From Chloranthus sessilifolius (lineage: Eukaryota; Streptophyta; Magnoliopsida; Chloranthales; Chloranthaceae): a DNA stretch of 64,000 bases. Below, piece by piece: positions 3,065 through 64,000 of this stretch. A program made the translations under genes and the position numbers. The DNA lies in contig CM037591.1 in assembly GCA_021018995.1 (NCBI GenBank), forward strand, positions 69,157,901 through 69,221,900. The letters run 5' to 3'. The notes beneath the pieces were generated by a model. The model did no database searches. It was not told the origin of the DNA and saw nothing but the letters and a program-made list of their open reading frames with translations. The first letter of the stretch is position 1, and each line of letters begins with the position of its first letter.

Positions 3065-3612
3065 GTTCCATGAACCTCTCGAATTGATTTCTTTGCTGAA
3101 GCCTTGATCTCGTCGAGAGATCTGCAAGAGCCTCTCGAGACCTTCAGCCTTCTAACCCTGCCATCCCAGCTGATTTTAACTCCTTGATAGGTTGTACCAA
3201 CCTATCGAAACCCTTTCTCCAATCCCGTCGAAGGACGATTTAGGTGTTTTTAAACCTATCGACAACTCATTTTTGCCATTCGACAGCTTCTATGTGCAAG
3301 ATTTATCTCTTCTTTGCCGATTTCTCAGTTCTTTCTTCTTCCTCTACCTCACTGGTTTCTACTCCAATCACCTGGCCATTTTTCCAAGTACTTTAATTTT
3401 ACAAGGGCTACATGTCGCACCTGGTCTGAGCTAATTTGGTGCAGTGCACATCGAGTTCTAAGAAACCCTAGGATTTTTGTGGGTAAGTTCTTTTCCAACT
3501 CCACTCTGTGAATTTTAAGATTTGTACTTTCATTTCCAATTTGTGTGGTTACTTTGATTGTGTAAAGAAGTCTGTGTGGTTGTTGAGATTTATTTTGAGG
3601 ATTGAGTGTCTA
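3065..3612 (+). promoter_or_regulatory. Putative accessory-gene promoter and leader of RE2 ORF3
   Basis: CCTATCGA occurs at 3201-3208 and 3255-3262, with relatives such as cctctcga (3075-3082, 3131-3138) and cccgtcga (3224-3231). These match the reiterated motif of the RE3 LTR. A 'gaaaccctagg' 5'-UTR-like segment (3460-3472) and a GGTAAGT splice-donor-like site (3482-3488) follow. The ORF3 frame opens about 125 bp later. The layout suggests a separate spliced transcript for ORF3. Confidence 0.5.
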
Positions 3613-6270: not shown

Positions 6271-6540
6271 GGAATAGATTGTGTTTAGGATTTGCTTGTA
6301 GTCCTTAGCTTGTAGTTAGGATTTGTTTGCAATTAGTTTGTTTTTTATTGTGCTATATATATTTTTGTTTAGATTATATTGCTTCTGTTGATACTTTGTA
6401 ATCACTTGTCTACAATAATAGTTTTGTTTTATCAATTCCACTTTGTCTCTTGTTGTCCTTTATATTTAGCTTTGTTCTTTATGTTTCTTTTGCTATTGTC
6501 CTTATATCTCCTTGTTGTGTCTTTTTGATATACTACCAAA

Positions 6541-7676: not shown

Positions 7677-7950
7677 TATTAAGTAGTGAAAAATGCCAGT
7701 TTTCACCACTTAACCTAACCTTTGCAGGACTTGTGAGCACATTAATAAATCTCTGTTGAGTTTGTTTTGTAGATAGCAATAAAAGATAGGAAAAATGCAA
7801 GAAACCACTCAAGAATGCCACACAAGGAAGTTTATCTCTCAGCACAGTACAAACCTAACAATAGCACACCAAAGGGTTGCACACCATTGGGCCCTTGGGA
7901 CGCGTGGCAACAGCAAGGCAAGGCGAAGGAAGTGAAAATAGGCTAAAAAT

Positions 7951-8505
7951 ATCCTATCGAAAGGTCATTTGAAGACTCCGATAGGAGCTGAAAGCTAAAT
8001 TGGAGGAATTCGTGCAGTTGGAGAGGGTTCGATAGGATCTGAAGGCAGGGAAAGGATGGATTCGTGTGGATTGATGAGTTTGATAGGATCCAAGAACCTA
8101 TCGAGCAGCTGAAAGAAAGGAAGAAACCATCCTATCAAAATCCTATCTGAGGTGTAAGGGGAACCTATCGAATGGTTTCCTGAACCTGTCAGATGGTGGC
8201 CTGGACCTATCGACATGGAGAAGCTGGAACATAACCTATTGAAGGGTGCTTGAGCCTGCCAATAGGAGTAAGAGAAACCCTATCAGAATGATGGCATGCA
8301 GAGCTGGACCTATCGAAATGGTCCTCCATCCTGTCGAAAAGCTTCTCCAGCCTGTCGAATGCTCCAGACAAAGGACTGAGAATGTTGAAGCCTTAAGAGA
8401 AGAATCATCCTATCTGAACCTATCGAAGAGACCTGAGAACCTATCGAAAGGGGCCACAAACCCCCATTTGAACGGTCGAAAGCTTCCTGAACCTATCGAA
8501 ATTGT
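7951..8505 (+). promoter_or_regulatory. CCTATCGA motif array in the RE3 LTR
   Basis: Exact CCTATCGA is at 7953, 8097, 8164, 8206, 8309, 8419, 8440 and 8492 (first base), with many variants in both orientations (gttcgatagg, cctgtcgaa, cctatcaaaa, ctccgatagg). The C of the central CG or its decayed form falls at 7958, 7979, 8030, 8081, 8102, 8169, 8190, 8211, 8314, 8335, 8356, 8424, 8445, 8477 and 8498. Most gaps are 21, 31-32 or 51 bp. Decayed sites between these (8136, 8147, 8240, 8260, 8284, 8414) fit less well. Confidence 0.75.
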
Positions 8506-9202
8506 GTGAAGAACTTCTCAGAAACTCAGCTATGCACACGCTTCAACTTAGTGACCTGCTGCATGCAAACCGAGGCACTTTGTTACCTGTCGACGATCCA
8601 AAAGATGCCCTAGAAAACCCTAACCAACCCACGTGCTCCAACAAAACTCTAATAAACTCTGAGGACCTTCTAGAAGGGAATATTGGCGAGAAAAATAAGA
8701 GAGAAAGCAATATATTGAGATCCCCAATTACAATTGGGGGAGATCGAGATTTAGATCAAATTCTAGAGATCAGAGCTTGCAGTGAATTCCATTTCTCCTC
8801 TTTTAGCTCAACTATGGTTGGCTAATTCCCTAGGAGCAGCGAGGAGAGAGGTTAGATATGTAATTGGGTAAGGTTGAGAATGTTATTGTGGGTTAATTGC
8901 TGCACAGATTACAGATCTGAGAGCATTTCATTGAAGAGCAAGAGTTATTGCAATGTAAATGTTGTTTTTATTGTTTTAATGAGATCTATAATTCTTTTGG
9001 TTTCATTTTGTTCTCGATCGGATTTGTATAGAGGAGTCTGTTGCTCAGCTCACTCAATTAACTGGTAGAACTCTTAGATACCATCCAATCTCCCTAGATC
9101 TGATATCCTTGTAATTTCTTGTGTCTGTGACCTGAAAATTGCAGCATCTGTAGTAGTTTTAATGCTCTGGTTGAAATATTTGATTTGGAGGAATTCCCTA
9201 GG

Positions 9203-10269: not shown

Positions 10270-11286
10270 CTACTCAGGGATCATCAGATCGAATTGGGAC
10301 CTCAGGCCCATCTCCAGATGCTTCATGCCCACTTCTCAGCACCGGTGTTTGTTCTAGTTGCTCAAAAGGGGGTAAGTGTATATTTCCAATTACGCTAGAC
10401 ATCAACATAGCATAACCAGGCCCGCCCTAGTCGTATCTATAAACGTCGAGCTAATTGTGCACCAGGCTAAGCTGGCCGAGGTTGACCCGTCTGCTATTAA
10501 CATTTGCAAAGATGGTTTTACCCAGCAATATGAGGAGAGTGATGAGGGCCAATACAATCACACGCTCAGGCTCAATGTAAATCTCCACATCTAGCTACCC
10601 CAGATCTACTAACTCATGCAGCCCAATAAGATCAGACAGCCAGGTCATCTTGAACTCGAAACCATGCCGACTGGAGGAGTGGGGTGATCCCCTATCAATC
10701 GGATAATCTCATCTCGATTGGGCATGACAAGGTTGGCTATCGGAATGCCCCCTACCCTAATACCTGTAATCATAGCCCAATCCACGGGCATCAGGGTCAC
10801 CTCAGCGAAGGCCATGTGAAAAGACATGGTCTTTGGGCAAAACCTCTTGATCATAGCTCTCATGTATGCAGAATCCACCCTCATGGCGGGCCATGACAAA
10901 AACTCTCCAAATCCACCCTGCTCGAGCAAGTGCTTCACGACAGGAGGGATGTAGCAATAAAAGTCCTGAAAGTCTAGCCAGCCCCCTCAGAATACAATAT
11001 GGGGCAAGTCCTGCGTCAGAAGAGAAAGATCTATCAGGTCTTGGAAATAGAGTAAAATCTCACTGGAAAAAGAGCTGAACCTATCCTTTACCTTGCCCGC
11101 AATATTGAAATTGGAAATGTGGATTTGTTGCTGGTAGAGGAGACCGACTAGGGCGGCCTCGCCCTGCACAAGCCATGGACACGCCTAGCGTTGTACTACA
11201 AAGAATTGTTCCCCCCGAGGACCATAAACCAAGTCCAGCCCCTCCTCCTGTCCTTCCTCTGGCACGTATTCCTCATCACCAGACAT
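10270..11286 (-). pseudogene. Plant-mobile-domain protein, antisense ORF of RE4
   Basis: The minus-strand ATG at 11286 opens M-S-G-D-E-E-Y. The frame runs through VQGEAALVGLLYQQQ and SAYMRAMIKRFCPKTMSFHM to DWAMITGIRVGG, the pattern of the plant mobile domain (MAIN/MAIL1 type). A TAG interrupts it near 11190 and a TGA near 10987. At about 10655 the frame shifts, and TWLSDLIGLHELVDLG and RVIVLALITLLILLGKTIF continue the family pattern with further stops. A GTAAGG donor-like site at 10264-10269 suggests another exon beyond. The domain is known from host developmental proteins and from transposons; its place inside RE4 argues for the transposon version. It is not functional as read. Confidence 0.65.
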
Positions 11287-12333: not shown

Positions 12334-12408
12334 GCTTGGCGTATGTATTACATGCGCCAGGTAATTTTGGGCCTACAGTTGGCTTGGCGCAACTAATAGT
12401 TGTGCCAG
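12334..12408. promoter_or_regulatory. Two dyad motifs upstream of the antisense gene promoter
   Basis: Copy 1 has arms GGCGTATGTA and TACATGCGCC (one mismatch) around a central T; copy 2 has GGCGCAACTA and TAGTTGTGCC. The GGCG starts are 48 bp apart (12338, 12386), matching the 47-bp spacing of the dyads in the Tat-type LTRs although the spacer sequence differs. Confidence 0.7.
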
Positions 12409-12599
12409 GTCATTTATGGGCTGGGTTTTGACCTACTGTGGATCATACACTCACAACTCGGTACCCTTCTCTTTGTTTTGTTACCCCCAACAAGTGCACA
12501 TGCTCCCAAATGGTATGCCGATCCTCATTCGGCTTGCTCGGAGAGCTGTGCTAGAGTAAGTAGATCGAGATCGATGAGCACGCTTAAAGAATCCCGATC

Positions 12600-13116: not shown

Positions 13117-13340
13117 CCTGACGTAACTAATAGTTGCGCTAGGCCATTTTCCCCCTGGATTTGCCTGGTGCAACTAATAGTTGCGCCAAGTCCTTTTCCC
13201 CCAGAAATGGCCTGGCGCAACTAATAGTTCCGCCAGGTATAAATGGGTCCCCCCACCCCTCGCGAGGCCAACTTCCAGGCTACTGTTCGTTACTGTTTTA
13301 CTGTACATTTGCCTGGCGCAACTATTAGTTGCGCCAGGCA
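13117..13340. promoter_or_regulatory. Four palindromic motifs in the RE5 5' LTR
   Basis: Dyads start (GGCG or variant) at 13120, 13167, 13214 and 13315, gaps of 47, 47 and 101 bp. The fourth is a perfect 29-bp palindrome (13311-13339): arms CCTGGCGCAACTA and TAGTTGCGCCAGG plus flanking G/C around a central T. The first three form a 47-bp tandem repeat with a C-rich spacer. The array lies 280-500 bp upstream of the TATA box. Confidence 0.85.
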
Positions 13341-15252: not shown

Positions 15253-15422
15253 CCTGGCGCATGTATTAGTTGAGCCAGTGTAAAAACACTGAAATTTATT
15301 ACTGGCGCAACTAATAGTTGCGCCAACTTTAAACTCCATGATTTTACCTTGGCGCAACTAATAGTTGCGCCAGTGTAAAATTGCTCCGCCGCAACCTGGG
15401 CGCAAGTATTAGTTGAGCCAGG
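15253..15422. promoter_or_regulatory. Four dyad motifs in the RE5 leader
   Basis: GGCG starts at 15256, 15304, 15351 and 15399, gaps of 48, 47 and 48 bp. Copies 2 and 3 keep GGCGCAACTA/TAGTTGCGCC exactly around a central A; copies 1 and 4 have GAGCC in the right arm. Spacing equals that in the LTR although the spacers differ. Confidence 0.8.
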
Positions 15423-42888: not shown

Positions 42889-43129
42889 TGTTAAGACCTG
42901 AAAAGTACCACTTTTCACCCTTTAACTTAATCTCTGTTAGTCCCTTAGTAATTTAATAAATGTGTGTTAAGCTCATTTTGCAGGGAATAAGCAATAGCTA
43001 CAGATACGGCCCTAACCATGCCAAGAAGCTTACTTTTGCCCTAGAAGTTCCTCAGGAGAAAGGAGGTTAGACCCAGACAGATAATTAGCTACAACATAGG
43101 CACAACACAACAGCAACAAGTCAAGAAGT

Positions 43130-43640
43130 GAGCCTCGCACAGATGTCACAGGGTTCAATTGAATCAGAAAGAATGCTTCGCGCAGTTGTCGTGGGTTTCT
43201 GAAGGCAGCACACCAATAGGCCGCACAGTTCTCACGCAGATTGATGACAGAAGGGAGTAAAATGCACACTTCGCGCAGTTCTCGTGAGGCTCAGTCATAA
43301 GCTCTCGCGCAGCTCAAGAAAGGAGCCATTAATCTTCGAGTGATTCACTAAGGAGAGAGAGCTTCAGGCATTCCTACGCGTAGCTGTCTCACGATGGGTC
43401 AAGGGATCATGGAATCTTCGTGGAATCGTCAGCGATCCAGAGGCCTATGCACATTTCTTCTTCGCGAGGATCTCACGAGATTCACCAAGGAATGAACCAC
43501 GCGTGCAATTCCCACGCCATTCAAATGGAAAGCACAATCCCGCGATGACTAGAGCAATCCCGCGATGACCAAACCATCTATCCCGCGACTGCAAGAGCTT
43601 CAAGTCAATTCAATCTCGCGACGCCAACTCTATCATGCTA
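43130..43640 (+). promoter_or_regulatory. CpG-rich motif array in the RE8 LTR
   Basis: Repeated TTCGCGCAGTT-STCGTG units (43178-43194, 43271-43287), with relatives ccgcacagttctcacg (43221-43236) and ctctcgcgcagc (43302-43313), then cccgcgatgac twice (43550, 43560) and ctcgcgac. It lies upstream of the TATA box at 43836. Confidence 0.7.
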
Positions 43641-43835
43641 TAAGACCTAGAAATCCTTGCTACCTAGCGAGGCTCGAGATCTTAACTTCCTCCCCCACTT
43701 CCTGAACTAGGGCACGCACTCCAATGCTCTAATCTTCGTGCACACGCCCCGAGGCATCTAAGGAACAGCAATGGGCCACATTTACATCATTAAAATTAGG
43801 GTTTTCCTAACCCTAATGCTCACACAGCCGACAGC

Positions 43836-43843
43836 TATATAAG
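43836..43843 (+). promoter_or_regulatory. TATA box of the RE8 LTR
   Basis: TATATAAG in the same context as in RE1 (about 485 bp before the first R/U5 stem-loop in RE8, 495 in RE1). Confidence 0.75.
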
Positions 43844-44320
43844 CCTTTAAGCCTGGTTTAGGTTGAAGGAGGTTGTTCTTCTTGAATCAACTATAGAATT
43901 CTAATAGGCTAAGGTTAGAGTTTAGGCAGCTTCTTTTTCCCTTTTTCTTCTCTCCATAGTCTAGAACTTGTTGGCTATGCCTTTGTTTGTTTATTTGGAA
44001 TAGTTTTAATGGAGCTTTATAATACGATCTTATGCATGTATGGGATTGAAGTTTGAGGGTTGTTCTGTTCAAGGTTGCTACCTTGAGATCCTCCATTGCG
44101 AAGTTGTATTGTAAGCAATGGAGGATTGTTTTTTAAGGATTTATTTACATCCAAGTGACCTGTGTGTCCAGGTTAGGCACATTGCAGGCCTATGTCCCAC
44201 CACAGGATCTACTAAATCTGAATCCCCATGGGAGCTTGAGCTGATAGCCTTGTGAACATGGTGGTGGCAGTAATCTACTTGTTCTATTTCAGACCTCTGT
44301 GAGGAGGATAACCTCTGTGG

Positions 44321-49385: not shown

Positions 49386-50021
49386 TTGTGCCACCTGCTC
49401 TGCCAGGATGTGCCCTTTGATTTTTCTACTAAATGTCTTAAGGCTTTTGAAACTTTGAAGATATGCCTCACCTCTGCCCTTGTACTCCAAACATCTGACT
49501 ATGCACTGCCCTTTGAGCTGATATGTGATGCATCCAACATAGCAATAGGTGTTGTTTTAGGCCAAAGGAAAGATAAGCTGCCAGTGGTCATTGCCTATCA
49601 TAGCAAATCACTTGCTGAAGCTCAGCTAAATTATACCACAACTGAGAAAGAGCTTCTGGCAGTGGTTTTTGCTGTTGACAATTTTAGACCTTACCTACTT
49701 GGGTCTAAAACTGTAATCTTCACAGACCACTCAGCATTGAAATACATGTTGTCCAAGAATGATGTTAAGCCCAGGCTGATTAGATGGATACTCCTATTGC
49801 AGGAGTTTGACATTGAAATCAAGGAAAAAAAGGGTGTGGAAAATGTGGTGGCTGACCACTTGTCCAGAATTGTGTTGGAAAAATGTGTTGATGACCTTGC
49901 AACTGATGTTTTCCCAGATGAGCAATTATTTTCCATCCAATCCTCGGTTCCTTCGTATGAACACATTGTAAATTATTTAGTTATAGGTAAGATTCCTGCC
50001 CATTTGACCAAAATGGATTAG
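49386..50021 (+). pseudogene. RNase H, RE8
   Basis: An open stretch of 211 codons: [60 protein letters not shown] and GVENVVADHLSRIVLEK. The catalytic Asp, Glu and Asp positions appear intact. It ends at TAG 50019. Confidence 0.85.
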
Positions 50022-51215: not shown

Positions 51216-52158
51216 TCCACAGGTGTGTCATTATTGTATCATATGTACTTCGGTTTTGTTAGATTTTATTGCTTTCTTTTATTCAAATTTTAGAGGAAAT
51301 TCTAGTGGCCTCACTTAAGTCTGAATCTGTCTAGTCTGGTTTCTCTTTATGCTTGGTCTGATGATTACTGATCTTGAATTGATGGTTTTTGCTTGAATTC
51401 ACGATGTTGGATAATGATTTTTGCTGTCTATGCTTGAATGCTTGATCTTAATTTGTCTGGGGGTATCCCTGGTGGTGAGTTGTGCCTAGGATCTAGCCAC
51501 AGCACAAATGGAAATGGCAGAATGAAGAGTGCATGCTCTCTGTTTAATAATTTACTATTTCAGGGTCCAAAAAGAGGCCTGGGAGACTCTCGCGCAATCC
51601 AAACGGAGCCCTCCAATAGATGTCGCGAGATTCAAAGTAAACCTGGGAACTTCTCGCGCGATCTAAATGGAGGATTTCATTAGCTGTCATAAGAAAAGGA
51701 CGCCTGAGAGACTCTCGCGCAATTCAAATAGAATTCTTCACTAGCTGTTGCACGATCCAAAGTGAACCCTAGGAGCCTCTCGCGCAATCCAAGTGGAGAT
51801 TACATCATCGCTAGGTTTCATTTCCCATCTCGCGATAGGATATGTTCCAAAGCGCGCCAAGCTTAGCAACAAATATTTTAACCCCACGCTTGTCTCCCTT
51901 TCCAGTAGTCTCTTCCTTCTTCATTCAGCAAAACCCTAGCTTTCGGCACTCTTCTACCTCTCTCCTCCAGCGTCCATTCTACAACCCATCATTCACACCA
52001 GGATCCTACAGATTTGTTCCTAACGTCATCCCCATCAATTGCCCTTTGCTCAGAGATCTCGTGGTGCACTGTGCGTCAGATCGAACCAAACCCTATGATT
52101 TTAGGGTAAGCACTCAGATCTCAGTCTCCCATTTTCATCTTCAAAAGTATAGTTTGTA
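51216..52158 (+). promoter_or_regulatory. Putative promoter and spliced leader of RE8 ORF3
   Basis: A motif array (51588-51840) has CTCTCGCGCAATCC at 51588, 51714 and 51778 and TTCTCGCGCGATC at 51651, about 61-65 bp apart, with TGTCGCGAGATTC between. It is followed by a weak TATA-like AATATTTTAA (51872-51881), a C/T-rich leader with 'aaaccctatgattttag', and a GGTAAG donor-like site (52106-52111). The motif is that of the RE1/RE8 LTR. No pol or ORF3 coding lies here. Confidence 0.55.
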
Positions 52159-53985
52159 ATGGCCCCTAAGAGTGAACCAAAGAAAAGGGGCAAGGATAAG
52201 GCCCCTGCTCAGTCCACTCCTAAGAAGGTCAAGACTTTTAAGGCACCGAAAAAAGGGAAGGAAGTGGTTGAGGAGGTGGAGTCAACCCCTGAGTTTTCTA
52301 CACCCTCTGAGCTCATGGCTTCAATCCCCTTAGAGCCTGAAGCAACTTTCGACCTGCCCTTCTTTGAGAAGGAGCCTCTCTCTGCTCCTACCATTCAATT
52401 TATGACCAAGGCTAGCCTGACACCCTTAATGAGAGGAATTCCAGCACTAGCCTACCCTAGGCTAGTGCAACTCTTTTATCAGCACATCAGGGTCACCAAG
52501 GACAAAGATGGACAAGCAGGTTTCCTTGTGTTGATTGATAATTTCGAAATGTTAGTTAGCCCTAAGCTGATTGCAGAGGTATTGGGCATCCCAACTGCAT
52601 TTGACACTAGCTGTGGATATGGCCCTCCCCTGAGTGCATCCATTGACACCATTGCAAGGGCGCTTACTAGAGGATTAAAGGTTTGAGGGGATTCCATTAG
52701 AAGAAGAGAGTTGGAGCCTGGACTCCTTTTCATTGACCAGGTATTGAGAAAGAACATCTATTGCTCAGGCCATCAGTAGGAGAAGAGAGCTCCTATTGCT
52801 GATGTTGTTTACTCGTTCTCTTTAGGGCATGGCTTCCATGCCGCCTGATTAATTTTTGAAGCAATGAAGGATCTGGTTTAGAAATTAGGGCAGAACAAGA
52901 AGCCACACACACTCCCCTATGCCAGAGTCATCACTAAATTACTTTTAAAGGGGGGTACAAGATAGCAAAAGGAGAGGAGACTACCACCCTTGCCCCTACA
53001 ACTTTTGCCAAGAGGCAATGGGGAATTAGCAGGAGCCTGATGGAGACCCAGAAGAAGAAGAAAGCAGAGGCTCAGGCCTCTCCCAAGCAAACAAAACAGG
53101 CAGTTGTTACAAGGCCCACCCCAGTTACTACAGAGGAGATTCCAGAGCCTGTCACCACCACTGCTGTAACAGCCCCAACATCCCCCCCACCTTTACTCTA
53201 GGATCCCCTATCCTAACAACATCCCCTACCCCTACTTCATCTCTCTCTCACCCTCCTCTGTCTTCATTATCCATGCCCACACCCCTTTCTCTTGTGATTG
53301 GTACCTGGGAGGACACCCCCATGTCAGCCCTTCACCATCCCCTACCCTACCTCAATACACAGCCCCAATACCCATCATCTTCATAAAACCCAGACAGCCC
53401 TCCACTGATCTCATACAAGAAAAGGAAAACCACTGACACAGCACCCACCATCTCCCTGACACCACCCACAATCCCTTTTATCCCCAGTGACACACCTCAC
53501 ATTGACCAAGACACCACTCTAGCCATGCCTACTACATCCCCATTCACAGACATAGACCTCAACCTTAAAATAATCACCAGATTCGAAGCCTTTATGGCTA
53601 GTTTCCTTGACACCACACCCTCTACACCCCCCTCCCGAACTCCCCAACTACATCACCATATCACTCACCAGAACCCCACTCCCCTCCTTCCACTTTCCAT
53701 CATGCCCCTTCCTCCCCTTTTCAACCTGTTCCATCTTCTACACAATCTCAACCTCCCAATCCAGACACACTGACACTCATCCTCTCCCTCATCCAAGACA
53801 TCCAATCCCAACTATTCACCACAACACACACACAGGACTAGATGCAAATTGAACTCACATCCATCAAATCCATACTTCAGACATTGACCAACCCACCCAT
53901 CCCTTAAAAACCCACTCAAACCCCCCTGGTCCTTTCCCCTCCTAGCCCTGACTCCACAACCCAACCATTCTCGTTTATACCTTTC
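52159..53985 (+). pseudogene. Accessory ORF3, RE8 (cut by RE9)
   Basis: The ATG at 52159 gives M-A-P-K-S-E-P-K-K-R-G-K-D-K, a Lys-rich, nuclear-localisation-like N-terminus (residues 1-37). The core at residues about 99-175 contains ALAYPRLVQLFYQHI, FLVLIDNFEMLVSPKLIAEV, LGIPTAFDTSCGYG and IARALTRGLKV. After TGA at 52684 the same frame continues RRRELEPGLLFIDQVLRKNI and GHQ-stop-EKRAPI. A long Pro/Ser/Thr-rich part in several frames follows. No signal peptide or membrane helix is seen, so the envelope label is only positional. Confidence 0.7.
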
Positions 53986-54728
53986 TGTAGACACCCAAAT
54001 TCGGCCCAAGGCCCGATCCATCTGTACTTCGGGAGAGATGTACCCCTGTGCTTCTGATGGCACCCCCCTGAACCCTTAGGAACCTACCTAGACCAGTAGG
54101 AATCACCCTAAGACCTTTAGAGCCATTCCCCCAATCCTTAGAAGTCACCCCTACACCCTAGAATCCCTTCCCAAACCTAGCTTAAACCCTTCTGGTGGTT
54201 GATGGGAGGAGAGCTACATAATTTCACATAGACTAGTACCATGGATGAGCCATATACCATTGGAAAGCGGGCTTCTTCAGCTTTCCAACAAGCCAAAGAT
54301 CACCCAATTTGGAGCTACGATTAAAAAGTTATGGCCAATTGAAGTTTCACATAAAATCATAAAAATTTTTACTCAGGCGTAGATATTACATACGCCCAGC
54401 CATTTTTACCCCAGATTACTCAGGCGTATATATTATATACGCCTGCCTATTTTGGGGAAAATTTGGCCGGGCGAATATAATATATATGCCCAGCATAGGT
54501 GGGACCGACCACGGGCTTCATCTTCTCAAAACTCCCCTGATTTTGGTGAAAATTACTGTTCCTAAACTAGGCATATATAATATGCACGCCCAGCTTAGCT
54601 ACAGTAACTGTCATCAGTAGCTCGAATTTCCTCCATCTAGTTTGACCCTTTGACCATCCCCTGGGTTGAGGTGGGTGTCTTGAGATTGGTTGCACCCCCT
54701 TTGAGCTTATTGACAACCCTTAAGTCAC
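53986..54728 (+). mobile_element. RE9: 5' part of a Tat-type LTR
   Basis: TGTAGACACCCAAATTCGG starts an LTR of the RE4/RE5 superfamily directly in RE8 ORF3, without a polypurine tract before it, so it is a 5' LTR. After 743 bp it is cut by RE10 at a point equivalent to 'caactccttaagtggctt' in the RE5 LTR. Four dyads (GGCG or variant at 54376, 54423, 54470, 54570) have spacing 47, 47 and 100 bp, as in RE5. The remaining parts of RE9 are outside the window. Confidence 0.85.
54374..54593. promoter_or_regulatory. Four dyad motifs in the RE9 LTR
   Basis: The second copy (54421-54445) is a perfect 25-bp palindrome: arms CAGGCGTATATA and TATATACGCCTG around a central T. Inner bases differ from RE5 (TATA for CAAC), yet complementarity and spacing are kept. 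Confidence 0.85.
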
Positions 54729-54984
54729 TGTTGACAAGTGAAAAATACCATTTTTCACCCCTAAACTTAAGTCTTGATAGACCTTTGAGAGAACTAAATA
54801 AGTGTTTTAAGTACCTATGTTGCAGCTAACAATAAAGACAGGCTTAAACATAAAAGCAGCTCAAAAGTGCCAAAAAGCTGACAATCCATGTCAGTCCAAA
54901 GGAAGGAAGTGAAGAAACAACCTCATCAGCTGTGGAAAAGTCCAAAAGGAAGAGGCAAAGACCTGTAAGAGAAGCAGGGAACAA

Positions 54985-55270
54985 TTCGAACAGAGAAATA
55001 CAATACAGAGTTCTTTTCGCAAAGAACCTGCACGTTTCGCAAAGAACCTGCACATTTCGTAAAGAACCTGGAACTCTGCGAAAAGGAATAAAACCTCCAG
55101 GCTTAGTTTTCGAAGAGCATCTGAACTCTTCGAAAAGAAGATTGAACTTTGCGAAAAGGAGAAAACACAATTCGAAGAGAGATTGAACTCTGCGAAAAGA
55201 GCTTCAGAAGCCACAGCACTCTGCGAAAAGACCCTTAAACTCTGCGAAAAGGTATTCTGGAGATTCGCAG
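54985..55270. promoter_or_regulatory. Phased TTCGCAAAG / CTCTGCGAAAAG array in the RE10 LTR
   Basis: Copies such as TTTCGCAAAGAACCTGCA and GAACTCTGCGAAAAG (inverted relatives of each other) have their CpG at 54987, 55018, 55038, 55058, 55079, 55111, 55131, 55152, 55173, 55193, 55224, 55245 and 55266. Gaps are 31, 20, 20, 21, 32, 20, 21, 21, 20, 31, 21 and 21 bp, close to two or three turns of the DNA helix every time. Confidence 0.85.
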
Positions 55271-56045
55271 CTTTAACAAGGGCAATTCAGTAATCTGTTG
55301 CACGCGTCCCAATGCATTTTAAAACCCAAGGACATTCCGAAAGATTCTGAGCACGAACCAAAGGCATATTCCTCCCCATGTGAACACCCAAAGATGAAAT
55401 TACTTGGCGGGAACTTCTAGAAGTTCCAACAGATTTTTGAATTTCCTAACAGAATTGATGCCTCTGTTTCTTGATTGGCTGAACCAGATCAAACAGTTAC
55501 GATTGGCGAATGCAGATCCGGATCCCGATGCTCGACTCTATTGGTGATATGGATTTAACCAATTCGATTGGTTGATGCACATTAGAGATGGACTTGGGAA
55601 AGCTATAAATTGACGAACCTTTTGCCCAATTTGGGCATCCAGATTTTGAGTTTCATTTCTAATCCCCCATTTCCCAGCCAGATAGTTTGTCTGAAATCCT
55701 TGTAATAGCTTCACTTTGAGTTACAATTGAGAGCTGTGAGACGTTTCTGTAATTCAAAAGAGAGTTGTATTCAAGACTATAAATCTGAGAGCTGTTTAAG
55801 CTGTTCTCTGTAATTGTAACGGTGGATTTGAAAAGGTTGCTGTAAACCGTATTTTCTCAATTGGAATCATGTTAAGGGTTCCCTCTGATCTCCTTATTGC
55901 ATTAGACTCCTTTAGATTTACTGTTTTTTTGCAATTTGCATTGATTCATTAATCTGTAAGAATTAGTGTTGGTAACCTAGTCTCTTCCAGCATTTGTAGT
56001 GATGTTTCCTGTTCTGAATTAAGGATTTGGATTAATAACTATTGG

Positions 56046-56077
56046 ATGGTTTGTGGCCATTAAAGTGGACAGACCAT
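56046..56077 (+). other. Conserved R/U5 stem-loop, RE10
   Basis: ATGGTTTGT pairs with ACAGACCAT at all nine positions (one G-U); CCAT/GTGG around TAAA. Three positions differ from RE1 and stay paired. Confidence 0.65.
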
Positions 56078-56601
56078 AGCCATAAGTGTAGCCTAATCCT
56101 TGAATTAGATTTATCTCTCTTACATCTGCGCTTGTAGCCAGATGAAGATTGGATCACCTCTGCTGAACTGCAGTATTTCTCATTAGATTTCAAAGACCAA
56201 ATCAGAGTTAGATATTACTTCTCCATCTTTGTTTCAATCACTCCCCCAACTCGGATCTGGATCATTTAGTTTAAATTTTCCTTTGTTTTTAGTTTGTTAA
56301 ACGTGACAAATTCAAACCTCTCATCTTATCAGCTTTCTAGATAGGATAAGAAGCCAGATCTGGTAGCTCAGATCTGGAGGTTTATCTTACATTTTAAACA
56401 AATTCTCTGTGGACGATCTTTCACTCACTTACTTTTAAAACTTGCTACAATTGGCCCTGATCTTGCAGGCTAATTCTCTTCTAACTGTGCTGATATTTCT
56501 TTAATTTCTTATATAGTTTAGAGCCACTGTAATTTGGCAACTTTAAAACTGTTTTCAAAATACACATAAATCAAGCACACTAAGAAGCAACAACAAGTTT
56601 T

Positions 56602-56619
56602 TGGCACCATTGCCGGGGA
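56602..56619 (+). promoter_or_regulatory. Primer-binding site of RE10 (tRNA-Asp type)
   Basis: TGGCACCATTGCCGGGGA, two differences from the tRNA-Asp complement, six bases after the LTR end. Confidence 0.87.
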
Positions 56620-56795
56620 ATTTGTTCTAAAATAGATAGACCTAAGTTTTTCATTTTAATTTTTATCAATACAAAACTATTCTATTGTTTATACTTGTGC
56701 AGTTATTCATATTCCGGTTTTTAAAGAAGGGAAATTACTGAAAGGAATTCTGAAGGTTTGCTGTGCATAATCAGATTTTTTTTGTTCCGAGTTGT

Positions 56796-57962
56796 ATGTT
56801 TGGTAGGAGGACTCTCAGCCCTAAGATTCTCCCATTGAATTTAGAAGTTGAAAGGCTACTACGAACCAAGCAAACAACACAGAATTCTGCTACTATGGGT
56901 GAAGAACCTCGACTTTTGAGGGATTACTTTGCACCTGGTGCTTATAATTCCCCCTTTTGCATTCAATTTCCTACTGTGGAAGGAAATTATGAGATCAAAT
57001 CCTCAACGATCCAAATGCTCCCTTCCTTCCATGGGTTGAGTAAGGAAGACCCATACAAACATGTGGATGAATTCTTGGCTCTTTGCACCACATTCAACAT
57101 AGCTGGACTGGGTCCAGAAGCAACCAAGCTTAGGCTCTTTCCTTTTTCATTAAAGGATAAAGCTAGAGCATGGTTATCCATGTTAGCACCAAATAGTATC
57201 ACTTCATGGAATGATTTACAATGTCAATTTTTAGCCAAATATTTCCCAATGTCTAAAACTAGCCAATTGAGACAAAGTATCATTTCGTTCTCCCAAAACT
57301 CAATTGAAACTTTCCATGAAGCATGGGAAAGATTCAAGGAACTGTTAAGGCAATGTCCTCATCATCAAATTCCTAGGTGGCAGCTGGTTCAAAGCTTCTA
57401 TCAAGGAATTGATCAAAAAGGCAAAAATATGGTGGATGCTTCCTGTGGAGGCACTTACTTACAAAAAATAGTTGAAGAGGTTTGGGACTTATTTGAAGTG
57501 ATTGGTGAGAATTCAACTCAGCAGGAATCTCTGTCAAGAGAAATTGAAAATCCGGCTAGGTTGAACAATCACCAACCCTCAAAAGGGAAGATCTATGAGG
57601 TGAATGAGTTGGAAAGAAAAATGGATAATCTAACCACAAAATTTGATAGATTGATGGACTCACTTAAAACTCCAAATGTTTCAAGAGTAGAGGAGGGATG
57701 CCTGATATGCCAGTCCCCTACTCATTCAGTTGATCAATGTCCTGCTGCATCACAGTTCCCAGATTTAATGGTGGAACAAGCTCATGCTGCTCAATCATTT
57801 GGACAGATGCAGTCAAATGAATATCCATGGAGAGCACTCCCCAATTTGAGGTGGAACCAGGGGAATTACCAATCCCAACAACAGCAACAACCAAAGAATC
57901 AAATGCCTTTCAAAACTGCACAGCCGTATCAGCAGAATTTTTATGTCAAACCAAACTTTTAG
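56796..57962 (+). CDS. gag: gag, RE10 (open, 388 residues)
   Basis: The ATG at 56796 (M-F-G-R-R-T-L-S-P) is chosen over upstream non-ATG codons in the same frame. Capsid pattern: IQMLPSFHGLSKEDPYKHVD, LRLFPFSLKDKARAWLSML, WERFKELLRQCPHHQIPRWQ, MVDASCGGTYLQKIVEE. The zinc knuckle CLICQSPTHSVDQC is complete (CX2CX4HX4C). A Gln-rich end reaches TAG at 57960. Gag forms the particle and binds RNA. The family normally continues into pol; here a frame change near 57950 separates it from the linker. Confidence 0.88.
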   Translation: MFGRRTLSPKILPLNLEVERLLRTKQTTQNSATMGEEPRLLRDYFAPGAYNSPFCIQFPTVEGNYEIKSSTIQMLPSFHGLSKEDPYKHVDEFLALCTTFNIAGLGPEATKLRLFPFSLKDKARAWLSMLAPNSITSWNDLQCQFLAKYFPMSKTSQLRQSIISFSQNSIETFHEAWERFKELLRQCPHHQIPRWQLVQSFYQGIDQKGKNMVDASCGGTYLQKIVEEVWDLFEVIGENSTQQESLSREIENPARLNNHQPSKGKIYEVNELERKMDNLTTKFDRLMDSLKTPNVSRVEEGCLICQSPTHSVDQCPAASQFPDLMVEQAHAAQSFGQMQSNEYPWRALPNLRWNQGNYQSQQQQQPKNQMPFKTAQPYQQNFYVKPNF

Positions 57963-58686
57963 CAGCCCATTCCACAACAACACTGCGACAATCGCTATTC
58001 AAAACCCTTCCAGGTCCCTTTCTTTTGAAGATCAAGTCCTAAATTCACTCCAGAATTTAGGATCTTTAACTCAAACTGTGAATTTTCACAGCCAGAGCAT
58101 AAAGAAGATTGAAGAAACATTGAGACAACTTTCAAATACCTTGGCAAAAAGAGAGGAAGGAAAGTTACCCAGCCAACCTTTGAACAATCCTAAAGGACAG
58201 TTCATGGTTGGAGAAGCTTCTAATTCACATGAAGAAGTAAAAACTGTCACCACTTTGAGAAGTGGAAAAATGATAGATAACAAAGTGGGTATTGAAGAAG
58301 GAAGAAATGAGGAAGAGGATAAAGATATGCAGCAGGAGCAGCATAGTGATAGCAGTGGGGTTGCTGATGTACCTCAGAAAAATCAAAAAAATAAAAAACA
58401 GAAAAGTAAAAAAATTTCTGAAGATACTTCTAAAGCTGTAGATGAAAGATTGGTTCCTCATTTACCATTTCCACATGCAATGAAATCTGTATCTCCTTTT
58501 GATAAAGGGAACACAAAAATAGATGATATGATGGAGACTTTCAAGCAAGTCAAGATAAATTTACCTTTGCTTGAGGCAATCAAACAAATTCCAGCATATG
58601 CAAAATTTCTGAAAGATGTGTGCACTCACAAAAGACAATCTAGGATACAGTTGTCCAAGAAGGTCTTTCTTTGTGGAAAGAATTAG
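57963..58686 (+). pseudogene. Gag-Pol linker, RE10
   Basis: The frame overlaps the end of gag from 57943. It has a coiled-coil-like run VNFHSQSIKKIEETLRQLSN, a Lys-rich stretch (KNQKNKKQKSKKISE), then DKGNTKIDDMMETFKQVKIN. It ends at TAG 58684 because of a frame change near 58670. RE6 and RE8 have the same arrangement, so it is a normal part of Athila polyproteins. Confidence 0.75.
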
Positions 58687-59160
58687 TCGTGTTATCCATT
58701 GCTACACCTCCCAAACTTCAAGATCCTGGAATCCCACAATCCCTTGCATTATTGGGGAACACACCATTGAAAAGGCTTTATTAGATCCTGGTGTTAGTGT
58801 CAACCTACTTCCATATTCTGTATATGAGAAACTAGGTTTGGGAGAATTAAAACCCACTCATGTGGTGTTACAACTAGCAGACAGATCTTAAAGAAAGCCA
58901 GTAGGGATAATTGAAGATGTTTTGGTAGGAGTAGATAAATTTTTCTATCCTACTGATTTTCTAGTTTTAGATATGGAACCAACCAAAAGCAAAACTTCCA
59001 TCCCTGTCATTTTGGGAAGACCATTCCTGGCTACAGCAAATGCTTGCATTCAATGCAGGTCTGGTATTATGGAAGTCTCATTTGGAAACATGAAGGTAAA
59101 ATTAAATGTTTATAATGCAGTCACACAGCCCCAATTCAGCTCTTAAGAATGTTTTCATGT
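58687..59160 (+). pseudogene. Aspartic protease, RE10
   Basis: IIGEHTIEKALLDPGVSVNL gives the active-site loop, with DPG for DLG. It ends SIPVILGRPFLATANACIQC. TAA stops at 58889 and 59144 lie in frame. Confidence 0.8.
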
Positions 59161-60340
59161 TGATCTATTGGATGAACTTGTGGAAGAAACTTTACAACAA
59201 TTTCTGCAGGGTGAAGACTTCACCACAGATATCAAAGATGCTTGGGGACATGCTGAAAAAGAAGCAAGTTTTATCTCCAATTCTGAGGAAATTAATGTTG
59301 TGCAAGGAACTCTTAAACAATCAGCAAGTTTTTCTTCTTGGAAACCTGCTACTCTCCCCCTTCCACAAACATCTAAGGTACCTTTGATACCTTCTTTTCT
59401 CAGCCCACCTGATTTAGAACTAAAGAAGCTGCCCAAAAATTTGAAGTATGTGTTCTTGGGTAATCATAAATCATTGCCTGCCATTATTTCTTCCTCTCTC
59501 ACAAAGGAGCAAGAGGAAGAGCTGTTGATAGTCTTGAAAGAACATAAAAAGGCTATTGGCTGGACTATTGCTGATTTAGGAGGAATCAGTCCAGCTGTTT
59601 GCATGCATAAAATCAACTTGGAAGAAGATGCAAAGCCTTCTAGAGAAATGCAAAGAAGGTTGAACCCTCATATGCAAGAAGTGGTCATGAAAGAGGTTGT
59701 TAAGTTGTTGGATGCAGGGGTCATTTACCCCATTTCAGATTCAGCTTGGGTGGCACCTACACAGGTGGTACCTAAGAAATCTGGAATCACCAATTATAAC
59801 CTCAGTTACGGTGAGCATATGTCAACCGGGCAAACAAGCTGGATGGAGAGTCCAGATTGATTACGAAAATTAAATGCAATGACCGAAAGACCATTTTCCC
59901 TCCCATTCATTGATCGGATCTTAGATAAGCTAAAGCGGAAAAGCTTATTACTATTTTCTTGATGGTTACTCGTTACAACATTCTTGTGTACCACAAGATC
60001 GTGAAAGACCACATTCACGTGCCCTTTTGGCACTTTTGCCTATAGGAGAATGCCTTTTGGTCTTTGTAATGCTTCTACTACCTTCCAAAGATGCATGTAT
60101 GCAATCTTTTTACGATATGATTGACCAATTTATGGAGATTTTTATGGATGATTTCTCAATCTATGGCAACAGTTTTTTCCGGTGTTTACACCATCTCAAA
60201 TTGGTACTACAAAGATGCTAAGAAATCAATCTGTTTTGAGTCGGGAAAAGAGCCATTTCATGGTCACCGGGCATTGTCCTTGGCCATGTTGTTTCCCACA
60301 AGGGCATTGAGGTGGACAAAGCAAAATTTGATTTAATTGC
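59161..60340 (+). pseudogene. pol: Reverse transcriptase, RE10
   Basis: Open up to 59800: KKLPKNLKYVFLGNHKSLPA, KKAIGWTIADLGGISPAVCM, VMKEVVKLLDAGVIYPISDS, VAPTQVVPKKSGI. From about 59810 the DNA still aligns with RE8 but drops single bases every few dozen positions, so motifs are scattered over frames: PFSLPFIDRILDKL, RMPFGL, then EIFMDDFSIYGNSF with the catalytic MDD (about 60139-60180). Confidence 0.8.
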
Positions 60341-61202
60341 ACATTTACCACCTCCCAAAAGCTGTTAAACAAATCGAAGTTTTTAGGACATCTTTGGATT
60401 TTACAGAAGATTCATCAAGGACTTCAGTAAAATAACTAAACCTCTTTGCCATTTGCTGTGCCAAGATGTCCCTTTTGTTTTCAATAATGAATGCATGAAG
60501 GCTTTTGAATTCCTAAAAACCATCGATTTCAGCTCCAATATTGCGTCTCAGATTATTCATTACCTTTTGAACTGATGTGTGATGCATCGATTATGCTTTT
60601 GGGAGCCGCCCTTGGACGAGAAAAGATAAGCTGCCTCATGTTATAGCTTATGCCAGAGATCAATGATTGATGCACAACTCAATTACACAACAACCGAGAA
60701 GGAGTCTGGGCAATTGTTTTGCTTTAGAAAAATTCGGTCATATGTCTTGGGTTCACAAATAGTGGTGTTCACGACCATTCGGCTTTAAAATACCTTACAT
60801 AAGAAGGACACCAAACCAAGACTCATCTGGTGGATTCTCTTGTTACAAGAATTTGATCTACAAATTAAAGATAAAAAAGGGGTGGAGAATGTAGTGGCAG
60901 ATCACCTCTCCAGGATTTTAACTGCTGAGATTGATAGGTTGCCTATCAATGAATCTTTCCCTGATGAGCAACTTTTTGCCATTAGTATACACAGTCCTTG
61001 GTTTGCAAACATAGTCAACTTTTTGGCTACTGGAAGAATTCCTCAACATTGGAATAGAATGGATAAAGATCTTTTCTTCTCAAAAGTTAAACACTTCATC
61101 TGGGAGGATCCTTATCTGTTCAAGAGTTGTCAAGATCAAATAATAAGGAAATGTGTCCCTGACCAAGAATTTCATAGAATACTTTCTATGTGTCATGAAT
61201 AG
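60341..61202 (+). pseudogene. RT end and RNase H, RE10
   Basis: 60341-60839 is aligned in DNA to RE8 but has frequent 1-2 base losses, so the RNase H core is unreadable in one frame. From 60840 a clean frame reads [36 protein letters not shown], and SKVKHFIWEDPYLFKSCQDQ up to the start of the integrase zinc-binding part, with TAG at 61200. Confidence 0.72.
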
Positions 61203-62270
61203 GCCTGTGGAGGTCATTTTAGTGGGAACAAAACTGCTGCAAAAGTTTTACAGTGTGGATTTTATTGGCCTACACTTTTCAAGGATGCCTTGCAGCATTG
61301 TAAGTCCTGCCTGTACTGTCAAAAATTAGGCAGCATTTCCAAGAGAAACTCAATGCCTTTATAGCCTATTTTGGTAGTTGAGTTGTTTGATGTTTGGGGG
61401 ATAGACTTCATGGGTCCCTTTCCTCCTTCCAATGGGTATACTTTCATTTTAGTAGCTGTGGATTATGTATCCAAATGGATTGAAGCCACAGCTACTAAAA
61501 CAAATGATCACAAAGTGGTCTTGAAATTTCTTAAGGATCACATTTTTTCCAGGTTGGGTTTTCCCAGAGCCATTATCAGTGATGGGGGAAGCCATTTTTG
61601 TAACAGACATTTTGAAACATTGTTGAAGAAATACTCTGTGACTCATAGAGTAGCCACTCCATATCATCCACAAACCAGTGGACAAGTGGAGGTTTCCAAT
61701 AGAGAAATCAAACATATTTTGGAAAAGACTGTGAAGAAGGATAGAAAGGATTGGTCCTTTAAGCTGAATGATGCATTATGGGCATATAGGACAGCCTATA
61801 AAACCCCAATTGGTATGTCCCCATTTTGGTTGGTCTATGGCAAAGCATGCCATTTACCAGTAGAGTTAGAATATAAAGTTTTTTGGGCCATTAAAACATT
61901 GAACATGGATCTAACTACTGCTGGTAATCACAGGAAATTGCAACTTGCTGAGTTAGAAGAGCTGCGAATGGATGCATACACCAATTCAAGATTATATAAA
62001 GAAAAAGTCAAAACTTTTCATGATAAAAATTTATTGAGAAAAGAGTTCTGACTGGTTCTAAGGTATGGTTATTTAACTCAAAGCTCAAGTTTTTCCAGGA
62101 AAACCGAGATCCGATGGGATGGGCCATACTTGTCGTTCGCCTTCAGTCATGACATCCTTGATCCAAGTAATGGAAGAATCATAAAGGTCAATGGTCAGAG
62201 GCTCAAACCATGCATTGAAAAAACCCAGGAGCCTGTGCTGACCATCCATCATCACGAATCTTCAAAAATC
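61203..62270 (+). pseudogene. Integrase, RE10
   Basis: The zinc-binding part ACGGHFSGNKTAAKVLQCGF continues to CKSCLYCQKLGS. The catalytic core has all three acidic residues: [28 protein letters not shown] and [15 protein letters not shown]. The frame is open from 61371 to 62051 and ends by a frame change. The C-terminal part (IRWDGPYLSFAFS, IKVNGQRLKPCIEKTQEP) follows in other frames to 62270. It is the best preserved integrase in the window. Confidence 0.86.
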
Positions 62271-62977
62271 TGATGGCCGAAAACTGTACATTATGTTTGT
62301 ATATCATAGTTTGTGCTTATTTTTTCTGTTTCTGTTTTTTTTTTTTTTTTCTCTTTTCGCAAACGTTAAATATGCTCAAAATCAAGTCGCAAAGTAATAT
62401 TTCTCTTTTCGTAAAGTTCAATTTGCTTTTCGAATAGATCTGTCGTAATGAACTACTCGAAGAGAAGATGTGCTCTTGAATAGTTGGTACCAAGCCGCTC
62501 TTTTCGAAAAAGTAATTCTGAAGCTAACTCCTTTGCGAAATGATGTTTCTGAAGCTATTAACTTGTCGAATGGTACTGATGCCATTCACAATTTTAAAAA
62601 GGACTCTTTTGGAACTTATCGAAAACTTAAAAGCACTTTGCGATATTAACCTTGAGTATATTTAAACCCTTTCGACGGTGGGGTTTTCATTTCAAACTCT
62701 CTCTGCAGAGCGACTCCTCTCACTAAAACCCTACTTCGTTCTTTCTTTACACGATTCAAAAAGTCTACTACCTTTTTTGTAACTAATTGGTTAGATCATC
62801 TGCATTTTCAGAAGAGGATTGCCGCTTATAATCTGGAGGATTTCTGCAAAGCAAACAACTCGTTCAAAACAGAAACCCTAAATCTCGGTATTTCTTTACC
62901 CATTCTCTCTGGTTATCATATAGTAAGTTGTTCTGTGTCGGCATCTATTTTTGGGCATTATTATACATCGATTTAGG
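62271..62977 (+). promoter_or_regulatory. Putative promoter and spliced leader of RE10 ORF3
   Basis: Motif sites of the RE10 LTR type recur: CTCTTTTCGCAAA (62351-62363), gtcgcaaag (62387-62395), ctcttttcgtaaag (62403-62416), cttttcgaa (62427-62435), ctttgcgaaa (62531-62540), tttgcgata (62638-62646). Then come TATATTTAAA (62657-62666), a C/T-rich leader with 'aaaaccctacttcg', and an acceptor-like 'tcgatttag' directly before the ATG at 62978. The arrangement is a full plant-type promoter plus 5'-UTR intron. A T-run lies at about 62336-62350. Confidence 0.6.
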
Positions 62978-64000
62978 ATGGGAAAAGCAGAGAAATCATT
63001 GGCTGCAATGTTTACCAAATCCTCTGCTAAAAAGATGAGCAAATCGACCCCAAAAGCAAAGGGAAAAACCAAAACTGCAGCTAAACGGAAACATTCAATG
63101 GATAAAGCGGACAGGGTAGAAAAAGGAAAGAAAATTAGACATGAGGAACCCATCCCTGCTGCTGCTAGCCCTGACCCTGAGCTTACTCCTCTGCCCATTC
63201 ATTTGGTTCTACCCAATCCCTTCATTGAAGCTCAGAAGCTACTACCCGAGCTAATGGTTGACGAAACTTTTTTCGACACCAAACCAGAATGCATGCCATC
63301 CTTAAGATACCTTAGAGAAGCTTCACTAAGCAATATCCTTACCCCCTTTCCAGAAAGAATTTACCCAAGAATGGTAAAGTTATGGTACCAAAACCTAGCC
63401 AAGGTCACTGAAAAAGATGCGGATGTCCCTACCCTTGTCATTTTTATTGATGATTGCGATCTGACTGTGACTTTTGAAGACATAGGGAATGCTCTAGGGA
63501 TACCATTCCAATTTGATCCCTCCGCCCTTTGGTCGCTAAATTGCCTCTTTTAGAGAGATGGCTGCCCATCTAACTCAAGGTATTGGGCACGCAGTCCATC
63601 ATGAGAAGAGACCTTGCTCCCCAATTTCTATTGATGGATTCCATTCTAAGGGGTAGTTTTTATGTCACTGGGCACAGCCAAGAGAGAAGATCACCAATTT
63701 TAGAGGCCCTCTTTCATTTTTCCAAGGGGCAGTTTTTCAATGCCCCTATGTTAATTTTGAAGCCATGGCTGATGTCGCATTTCAAGCTAAAGAAAGAGCG
63801 AAGATAGGGCCTACCATTTGGCGTGATTGATCAGCCCTCCTCAAGCCAAATTTGACATTGATCGAGGAGCCCTTTGAAGTCATTACACCACACAATTTTG
63901 GAAAAAGGCTTGGACTACAAGCGTGCAATGTCGAAGGATGAGAGAGGCAGGTGAACCTGCACATGCCCCTATTGCTGCACCAGAACCTGCAGTGGTGAGT
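62978..64000 (+). pseudogene. Accessory ORF3, RE10 (partial)
   Basis: The ATG at 62978 gives M-G-K-A-E-K-S-L-A-A-M-F; residues 14-55 are Lys-rich (SKSTPKAKGKTKTAAKRK), a strong nuclear-localisation-like region. The core has ERIYPRMVKLWYQNLAKV, TLVIFIDDCDLTVTFEDI and NALGIPFQFDPSA. A frame change near 63550 leads to MRRDLAPQFLLMDSILRGSF and GHSQERRSPILEALFHFSKG. It runs off the window. The same core is found in RE2 and RE8. DNA-binding is possible but unproven. Confidence 0.68.

Follow-up and report, generated by a model that had tools for sequence, protein, structure and literature searches.

Family-specific motif arrays recur in the long terminal repeat and before the accessory gene of Athila- and Tat-type retrotransposons of Chloranthus sessilifolius

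A 64 kb window of the Chloranthus sessilifolius genome (assembly GCA_021018995.1, contig CM037591.1, positions 69,157,901 to 69,221,900), which is the scope of the whole analysis, contains nested plant long terminal repeat (LTR) retrotransposons. Four families in it carry a motif array of their own in the U3 part of the LTR and again in front of the accessory gene located after pol, which is open reading frame 3 (ORF3) in the Athila-type elements and an antisense plant mobile domain (PMD) gene in the Tat-type elements. New here is that the Athila arrays lie in the main CpG islands of otherwise CpG-erased DNA, that CpG is retained beyond them into promoter and 5' leader flanks, that 3/6 Athila arrays are phased near 10.5 bp, and that the Tat dyads keep steps of 46-48 bp, a related Tat LTR having a different palindrome at 4/4 dyads in the same layout. 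Judged by their sequence, the arrays are probably family-private protein sites that serve both promoters. We take elements RE8, RE10, RE3/RE2 and RE7 to be Athila-type Ty3 elements and RE4 and its relatives to be Tat-type, labels drawn from the primer-binding site (PBS) and the layout.

A sequence-only reading of this DNA had proposed that each family repeats its own motif in the LTR and before the accessory gene, and within the window this sharing stood out over shuffled controls. Our own expectation-maximisation (EM) motif discovery returned clear motifs for RE3 and RE10; the RE8 motif was loose, and RE4 and RE7 gave noise that reflects composition. We used k-mer tests instead, in which the k-mers of each U3 were scored on target regions with dinucleotide shuffles (n=300) as null. 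The RE8 U3 scored z 3.6 on its own pre-ORF3 region at k=6 (0/300) and z 2.7 at k=7 (1/300). The RE10 pair reached z 7.0 and the RE3-RE2 pair z 9.9 at k=6, with 0/300 shuffles at k=6 and k=7 in both cases, and the RE4 U3 gave z 4.6 to the region before the PMD gene and z 18.0 to a further region before the gag-position ORF (k=6; 0/300 each at k=6 and k=7). The highest z among 20 mismatched pairings (U3s of RE8, RE10, RE3, RE7 and RE4 with five partner regions, namely those of RE8, RE10 and RE2 and the pre-PMD and pre-gag regions of RE4) was 2.2 at k=6; some other cells of the sharing table reached z 2.0-3.2. The U3 of RE2L, the second RE8-type LTR, scored 3.0 on the RE8 pre-ORF3 region, no higher than the 3.2 obtained on the RE8 U5 control.

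The position of the best match was determined by scanning all 64 kb. The best window outside LTRs (k=6; k=5 agrees) was 51576-51825 for RE8, 62301-62550 for RE10 and 3126-3375 for RE3, and the RE4-trained scan returned 15201-15450 (pre-gag) followed by 12201-12450 (pre-PMD); the own-family region was thus the best in 4/5 families. The reverse search, trained on the internal array, agreed: the own LTR array was the best match for RE8, RE10 and RE2, while training on the RE4 pre-PMD array returned the pre-gag array first and LTR1 next, and training on the pre-gag array returned LTR1. With RE2L (801-1550) as training sequence the RE8 array ranked first at k=5, and at k=6 it came second, behind 40201-40450 in RE7. 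Other parts of the same LTRs found their own array in 0/7 trials (k=6), and 7/200 random training segments had their best match in any of the three arrays. Values of z >= 5.6 were obtained with 80/200 random segments, indicating that z alone is not special and that it is the place of the best match that tells. That the LTR array and the pre-accessory array of a family find each other as best match was counted in favour of arrays private to each family.

The families differ in motif, as had been claimed, and the true pairing of four U3/internal island pairs ranked 1 of 24 when their NNCGNN spectra were compared. With no motif preset, the 5- to 7-mers most enriched over shuffles were CGCGA and TCGCGCA, common to both RE8 regions, and TCGCA and CGAAAAG, common to both RE10 regions; CCTATC and ACCTATC were among the most enriched and common to the RE3 U3 and the RE2 pre-ORF3 region. 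The RE10 LTR and pre-ORF3 region aligned in a 42-column block of 86% identity that covers two units (E 5e-8 in this small comparison). The corresponding alignments of RE8 and RE3/RE2 were weaker (59-66 columns, ~67%, E 0.002-0.013), and the Tat arrays aligned across 80-160 columns.

The arrays are listed in Table 1. Before RE8 ORF3, where sites had been described, seven were recovered at 51588, 51621 (minus strand), 51652, 51713, 51748 (minus strand), 51778 and 51828, all of TCTCGCGCAA type. The array described in the RE8 LTR is present as well, but exact CTCGCGCA occurs there only once, at 43304, the remaining sites being variants. For RE10 the earlier description held in both places, with 14 sites in the U3 and 10 before ORF3 at two or fewer mismatches from TTCGCAAAG. 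Exact CCTATCGA occurs nine times in the RE3 LTR (8 on the plus and 1 on the minus strand) and twice before RE2 ORF3, in agreement with the sharing proposed for these two, but RE2 and RE3 do not together form an intact element. Downstream of the RE2 ORF3 and 3' region comes the RE3 LTR (7677-9860); ~500 bp have apparently been lost between them (7660-7700), and the RE3 LTR is itself followed by a PBS. The putative grouping of RE2 and RE3 in one family is drawn from their position and from the very motif in question. The RE2 pre-ORF3 array starts directly after the end of an RE8-like LTR at ~3066; this LTR (663-3066) abuts the array of the other family without a PBS (3045-3090), and the two junctions (3045-3090 and 7660-7700) are recombinant or tandem arrangements. 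All Athila cores (CCTATCGAA, TTCGCAAAG and TCTCGCGCAA types) are non-palindromic. The description of the motifs as CpG-centred fits these sites but not the Tat site, which is a palindrome of 21-27 bp with GGCG...CGCC arms and a CpG in each arm.

The CpG observed/expected ratio (o/e) of the whole window was 0.38. In RE8 it was 0.08 in gag-pol and 0.05 in the rest of the LTR versus 1.01 in the U3 array and 1.14 in the pre-ORF3 array, and in RE10 0.18 and 0.26 outside the arrays versus 1.08 and 1.45 within them. RE3 showed 0.14 in the rest of the LTR and 0.55 in the array, and the RE2 array 0.93. Along RE8 there are 0-3 CpGs per 200 bp except at two peaks, one per promoter, and the pre-ORF3 island runs on to ~52100 across the 5' untranslated region (5'UTR)-like stretch. 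The share of CpGs held in a small part of the element was 66/103 within 12% of the length in RE8, 49/115 within 16% in RE10 (up to the window end), 37/56 within 17% in RE2/3 and 22/85 within 11% in RE7. CpG was also retained beyond the arrays, toward TATA or donor-like sites (Poisson P 4e-5 to 7e-4 in 5/6 flanks, 0.03 in RE2). Weak motif matches occur in 5/6 flanks, and with the CpGs inside them excluded P was 3e-4 to 6e-3 in 5/6 and 0.03 in the sixth. Since retention extends to the flanks, selection on the motif alone would not explain it; it is in keeping with source copies whose promoter domain stayed free of methylation in the germline, whatever the agent. The Tat element RE4 is CpG-rich across much longer stretches and its LTR1 array has an o/e of only 0.65, which limits the island argument to Athila.

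Placement upstream of TATA-like and 5'UTR-like sequence was found as previously described, the TATA-like stretches upstream of the ORF3 leaders being weak. The ORF3 leader has ACCCTA, and GGTAAG-like donors are present at 52105 and 3482, with a weaker one at 62887. Sites on both strands were called in 6/6 Athila arrays and were firm (0-1 mismatches) only in RE10 and RE3 U3. The centre spacings in the RE10 U3 are 31, 20, 20, 21, 32, 20, 21, 21, 20, 31 and 21 bp, plus two stray sites. Phasing at 10.5 bp was detected in 3/6 Athila arrays (RE10 U3, 1/2000; RE10 pre-ORF3, 0/2000; RE3 U3, 1/2000). Both features suit a putative DNA-binding protein, although tandem duplication could have created part of the phasing in RE10 and RE3 U3, where repeats with a period of 20-21 bp were called.

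Copies of the 21-bp palindrome are spaced 46-48 bp apart at each of their locations in the Tat-type elements: three LTRs, two of which have a further, fourth dyad at a distance of 101 bp, the region upstream of the gag-position ORF, and the region upstream of the PMD gene, where there are two. Dyads had been reported in the RE4 LTR and before the PMD gene; both sets exist, but the RE4-type dyads cited for the LTR, at 30846/30893, belong to another Tat LTR copy, not to the one that adjoins the PMD gene. The pre-gag array is an addition to that reading. The LTR of a second Tat family is 58% identical to LTR1 (740 columns) and its arms are of GGCGTATATA type versus GGCGCAACTA in LTR1 at 4/4 dyads, the layout being 47/47/100 versus 47/47/101. 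For the dyad pair count 19/21 dyads were used; the two omitted, at 28601 and 28647 in LTR2, are decayed (6 and 5 of 10 arm matches), their omission raises the paired percentage, and row 30981 is out of register. Among the 19 dyads, 17 cells showed two-armed changes versus 9.7 in shuffles (1/500), and the covariation score was 0.263 versus 0.176 (0/500), falling below 0.08 when slid; because the dyad rows are related, these shuffle fractions are not probabilities.

Table 1. Arrays and accessory-gene pieces in the window
Feature	Position	Strand	Remarks
RE8 LTR U3 motif array	43125..43640		CpG island 43101-43850; TATATAAG after array at 43836
RE8 array before ORF3	51569..51860		7 TCTCGCGCAA-type sites, <=3 mismatches
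RE10 LTR U3 array	54985..55275	both orientations	spacing mainly 20-21 or 31-32 bp; TATAAA at 55604
RE10 array before ORF3	62350..62650	both strands	10 sites, helically phased
RE3 LTR U3 array	7945..8510		CCTATCGAA sites
RE2 array before ORF3	3067..3290		7 CCTATCGAA-type sites, <=2 mismatches
RE4 LTR1 dyads	13117..13338		four of GGCGCAACTAATAGTTGCGCC type: 13120, 13167, 13214, 13315
RE4 pre-gag dyads	15253..15422		four before gag-position ORF 15906-17093: 15256, 15304, 15351, 15399
Tat pre-PMD dyads	12335..12409		two, at 12338 and 12386, upstream of antisense PMD gene
Second Tat family LTR dyads	54373..54593		LTR 53988-54735; four, GGCGTATATATTATATACGCC type palindrome, 47/47/100 layout
RE8 ORF3, open first part	52159..52683	+	K-rich N-terminus; Transposase_32-like stretch, E 0.11, far below curated cut-off
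RE10 ORF3, open first part	62978..63550	+	basic N-terminus; similar coding resumes in another frame past stop
RE2 ORF3 region	3600..6271	+	several open pieces, broken
PMD-like antisense piece	10648..10986	-	Plant mobile domain PF10536, E 4.7e-7

The accessory proteins were analyzed from the pieces that are still open. The PF10536 match scored 29.7 bits against a curated cut-off of 34.9, on a 113-residue piece of a broken gene. Identity to the RE10 piece is 31% for ORF3 pieces of RE8 and 41% for those of RE2. In each of the three ORF3s the first open piece is strongly basic (top net charge per 40 residues +8, +13 and +11), which suits a predicted nuclear protein. The top 19-residue hydropathy among six ORF3 pieces was 1.98, in RE2 (4060-4413), the others ranging from 0.60 to 1.30 (RE8 1.30, RE10 1.13), and on this value ORF3 may have a membrane role. 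An envelope reading of ORF3 was nevertheless set aside, though not disproved, in view of the basic start. A Pfam scan at E<=10 took in nine of the ORF3/PMD pieces; DUF1985 and DUF287 were not found in these nine, which gave Transposase_32, PMD and other weak matches. No relative turned up in protein searches with the RE10 ORF3 or with the PMD piece, solved structures were of no help, and the predicted ORF3 model was poor (mean predicted local distance difference test score, pLDDT, 53.6).

Other Pfam domains found in the window were Retrotrans_gag in RE10, RNaseH in RE8 (49386-50018), reverse transcriptase (RT, 21993-22781) and integrase (24045-24458) in RE4, and integrase in RE10 (61371-62048) and on a minus-strand element at 32182-33078. 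The RE8 RNaseH precedes a stretch matching the RE10 integrase. RE4 and RE8 thus show RT/RNaseH followed by integrase, which is the Ty3 order and not that of Ty1/copia. The RE4 gag-position ORF (15906-17093) gave no Pfam match, and 'pre-gag' is therefore only a label; long tandem repeats with units of CCAAGGCCCATGGCC type were observed there, at 16682-17314. RE7 was not similar to the pol of any other element. It has two short CpG islands, in the LTR U3 (37251-37600) and before a small ATG at 40549 (40001-40300), which share an ACGA context (6/11 CpGs in the LTR and 7/11 in the internal island; 9/300 at k=4, without significance at k=5 and 6). The window 40201-40450, which scored with RE2L, overlaps the internal island. 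Viral contigs contained no relative of the RE8 RNaseH and no match to the Athila-like PBS pattern.

We propose that each family has a private array of DNA-binding sites at every promoter it owns. The array in the LTR U3 would serve the promoter of the genomic RNA, a second one would serve the accessory gene (Athila ORF3 or Tat antisense PMD gene), which apparently has its own promoter, 5'UTR and perhaps an intron, and RE4 would have a further array upstream of the gag-position ORF. Many sites would be occupied jointly by a nuclear protein with sequence specificity, which would keep the promoters active and free of CG methylation; we infer the binding, the identity of the protein, the hypomethylation and the activation. 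The simplest candidate reader would be the accessory protein, or a complex recruited by it, resulting in a self-specific positive loop like that of VANC. That the accessory protein or its complex reads the arrays has, in our judgement, about an even chance, and the proposal as a whole, with private arrays at every promoter and a self-specific positive loop, could equally well prove right or wrong. The earlier suggestion that ORF3 and the PMD protein are self-recognising regulators is supported in part: the family-specific arrays shared between promoters are upheld, and the basic character of the ORF3 starts suits a nuclear role. The binding of the arrays by these proteins would follow from our proposal.

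Host transcription factors, different for each family, might bind the arrays instead, with genomic RNA and accessory mRNA co-expressed and the accessory protein acting otherwise. The arrays do stand upstream of TATA-like and 5'UTR-like sequence, any active unmethylated promoter would retain CpG, and the RM boxes of Sireviruses matched mainly sites of stress-related factors (Bousios et al., PMC2829016). We consider this rather unlikely, because the six-letter CpG contexts differ among four families of one genome, the true LTR/internal pairing being the best of the 24, and because two related Tat LTRs differ at every dyad in both arms; such private changes would be easier with an element-encoded partner.

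The internal array could also be a functionless copy of the LTR U3, moved via recombination or template switching, as the aligned block of RE10, the weaker ones of RE8 and RE3/RE2 and the longer Tat alignments might suggest. However, all three families of Athila type have the array at the same position, Tat has it at two internal places, and in every case a gene follows. Together with the retention of CpGs in the internal arrays and their flanks, against their loss elsewhere, this makes a mere copy improbable. Action of the arrays as RNA or DNA hairpins, for instance as small-RNA sources or structural signals, appears more improbable still. Hairpins are possible for Tat, whose pre-gag array folds at z -9.2 versus shuffles (0/200), and the three Athila pre-ORF3 arrays fold at z -2.7 to -3.0 (one shuffle equally good in each), but the Athila sites are non-palindromic, sites in two orientations alone give weak folding, and helical phasing is a DNA-level feature.

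Several results weigh against our proposal of private arrays read by a self-specific protein. RE8 is the loosest family and the weakest case. Between its LTR array (43125-43640) and that of RE2L (~905-1430) identity was 78%, compared with 85% in the neighbouring U3 and 89% in the rest of the LTR, and 22/49 CpG columns of the two arrays show CG-to-TG/CA changes, indicating that the copies here are decaying, as expected of silenced relics; the copies in the window are broken. With four-letter NCGN spectra the RE8 U3 was as near to the RE10 U3 (0.83) as to its own partner (0.80). The minus-strand sites of RE8 and RE2 are weak (2-3 mismatches), and 10.5-bp phasing was not detected in the RE8 arrays (1833/2000 and 1095/2000) or the RE2 pre-ORF3 array (78/2000). 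RE7 failed the k-mer tests, in both the sharing score and the window scan. A CpG-rich stretch inside RE10 pol (59801-60050) is an exception to the two-island pattern, and the Tat arrays are not the CpG peaks of their element. The first pre-PMD dyad (GGCGTATGTA / GGCGCATGTA) is nearer to the type of the second Tat family than to RE4, and two of the five dyad measures were unremarkable (pairs with a change on both sides, 193/500; additional pair types, 76/500).

Conservation of the array by purifying selection was rejected, the array being the faster-changing part between the two RE8-type LTRs. Their divergence is 22% in the array versus 11% in the rest, about twofold.

What the post-pol genes of Athila and Tat elements do is treated as an open question in PMC7264820 and PMC11963269. 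It is tentatively suggested that two Ty3 lineages encode self-specific anti-silencing activators, Athila ORF3 and the Tat antisense PMD protein, each reading private fast-changing arrays, the Athila CpG islands being the mutational footprint, although we regard this as somewhat less than an even bet. If true, together with VANC and the Sirevirus boxes, self-recognising anti-silencing would be a strategy general to transposable elements of plants, and the 'env-like' and antisense genes, for long without an explanation, would gain a function. The shared private array offers a concrete candidate DNA target for each post-pol protein. It would connect the 'env-like' ORF3 with the control of promoters instead of an envelope. 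It also suggests that anti-silencing arose in retrotransposons as well as in DNA transposons.

A literature search with most subscription journals outside it, and sources available partly as passages, found no report of an LTR motif array repeated before an Athila or Tat accessory gene. Among related genes, the antisense TRP28 genes of Retand sit between pol and the 3' LTR and their proteins, predicted to bind DNA, have already been given a proposed regulatory role (PMC11963269), and Grande gene23 is described as nuclear with its own promoter (PMC7264820). The Tat elements here resemble these in the antisense accessory gene between pol and 3' LTR and the proposed regulatory role, and Grande in the apparent own promoter; they differ in having PMD instead of TRP28, and in the available text of those reports no link to an LTR-shared motif was found. 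The 3'aORF of sunflower Athila 14, after pol, has Transposase_32 and a predicted nuclear localisation signal (PMC11728184), to be compared with the weak match of RE8 ORF3 to Transposase_32 and the basic N-termini of the ORF3s here; the passages on the 3'aORF describe no promoter array. As for the PMD proteins MAIN and MAIL1, the genes whose expression falls in their mutants have promoters enriched in a DNA motif (PMC7156037).

The closest architecture appears to be that of the Sirevirus RM boxes and the closest mechanism that of VANC. The sequence-only reading cited VANC, a work-alike, but not the RM boxes upstream of ENV, which are nearer in architecture. RM boxes are CpG-bearing element-specific motifs of which the LTR contains numerous copies, placed upstream of TATA (Bousios et al. 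2010, PMC2829016). They recur after pol, upstream of ENV, in 77/79 linker copies, and they form CpG islands, for which an internal promoter was proposed; they are palindromic with a CGG-CCG core in 12/13 and were reported absent from the classic retrotransposons studied (PMC2829016). RE8, RE10 and RE3/RE2 likewise have the same motif cluster in the LTR and before the post-pol gene, and in the RE8 and RE10 LTRs the clusters coincide with CpG islands near the TATA box. Unlike the Sireviruses, which are Ty1/copia, these elements are of Ty3 Athila type with differing, non-palindromic cores in place of the CGG-CCG palindrome, and Tat has long GGCG...CGCC dyads, an antisense gene and a further array upstream of the gag-position ORF. 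The VANDAL motifs are short, dense, family-private, often fast-changing tandem repeats in noncoding DNA, and VANC, for which binding and anti-silencing were demonstrated, causes local loss of CG methylation at its sites (Hosaka et al. 2017, PMC5735166; Sasaki et al. 2023, PMC10398659). Dense family-private arrays in noncoding DNA are found here too, and the CpG retention in and around them may be an indirect trace of a comparable loss of methylation. On the other hand, VANC belongs to DNA transposons (Mutator-like elements, MULE) and has DUF1985 and DUF287, whereas the arrays described here belong to retrotransposons, known from sequence, in whose scanned pieces neither domain was detected.

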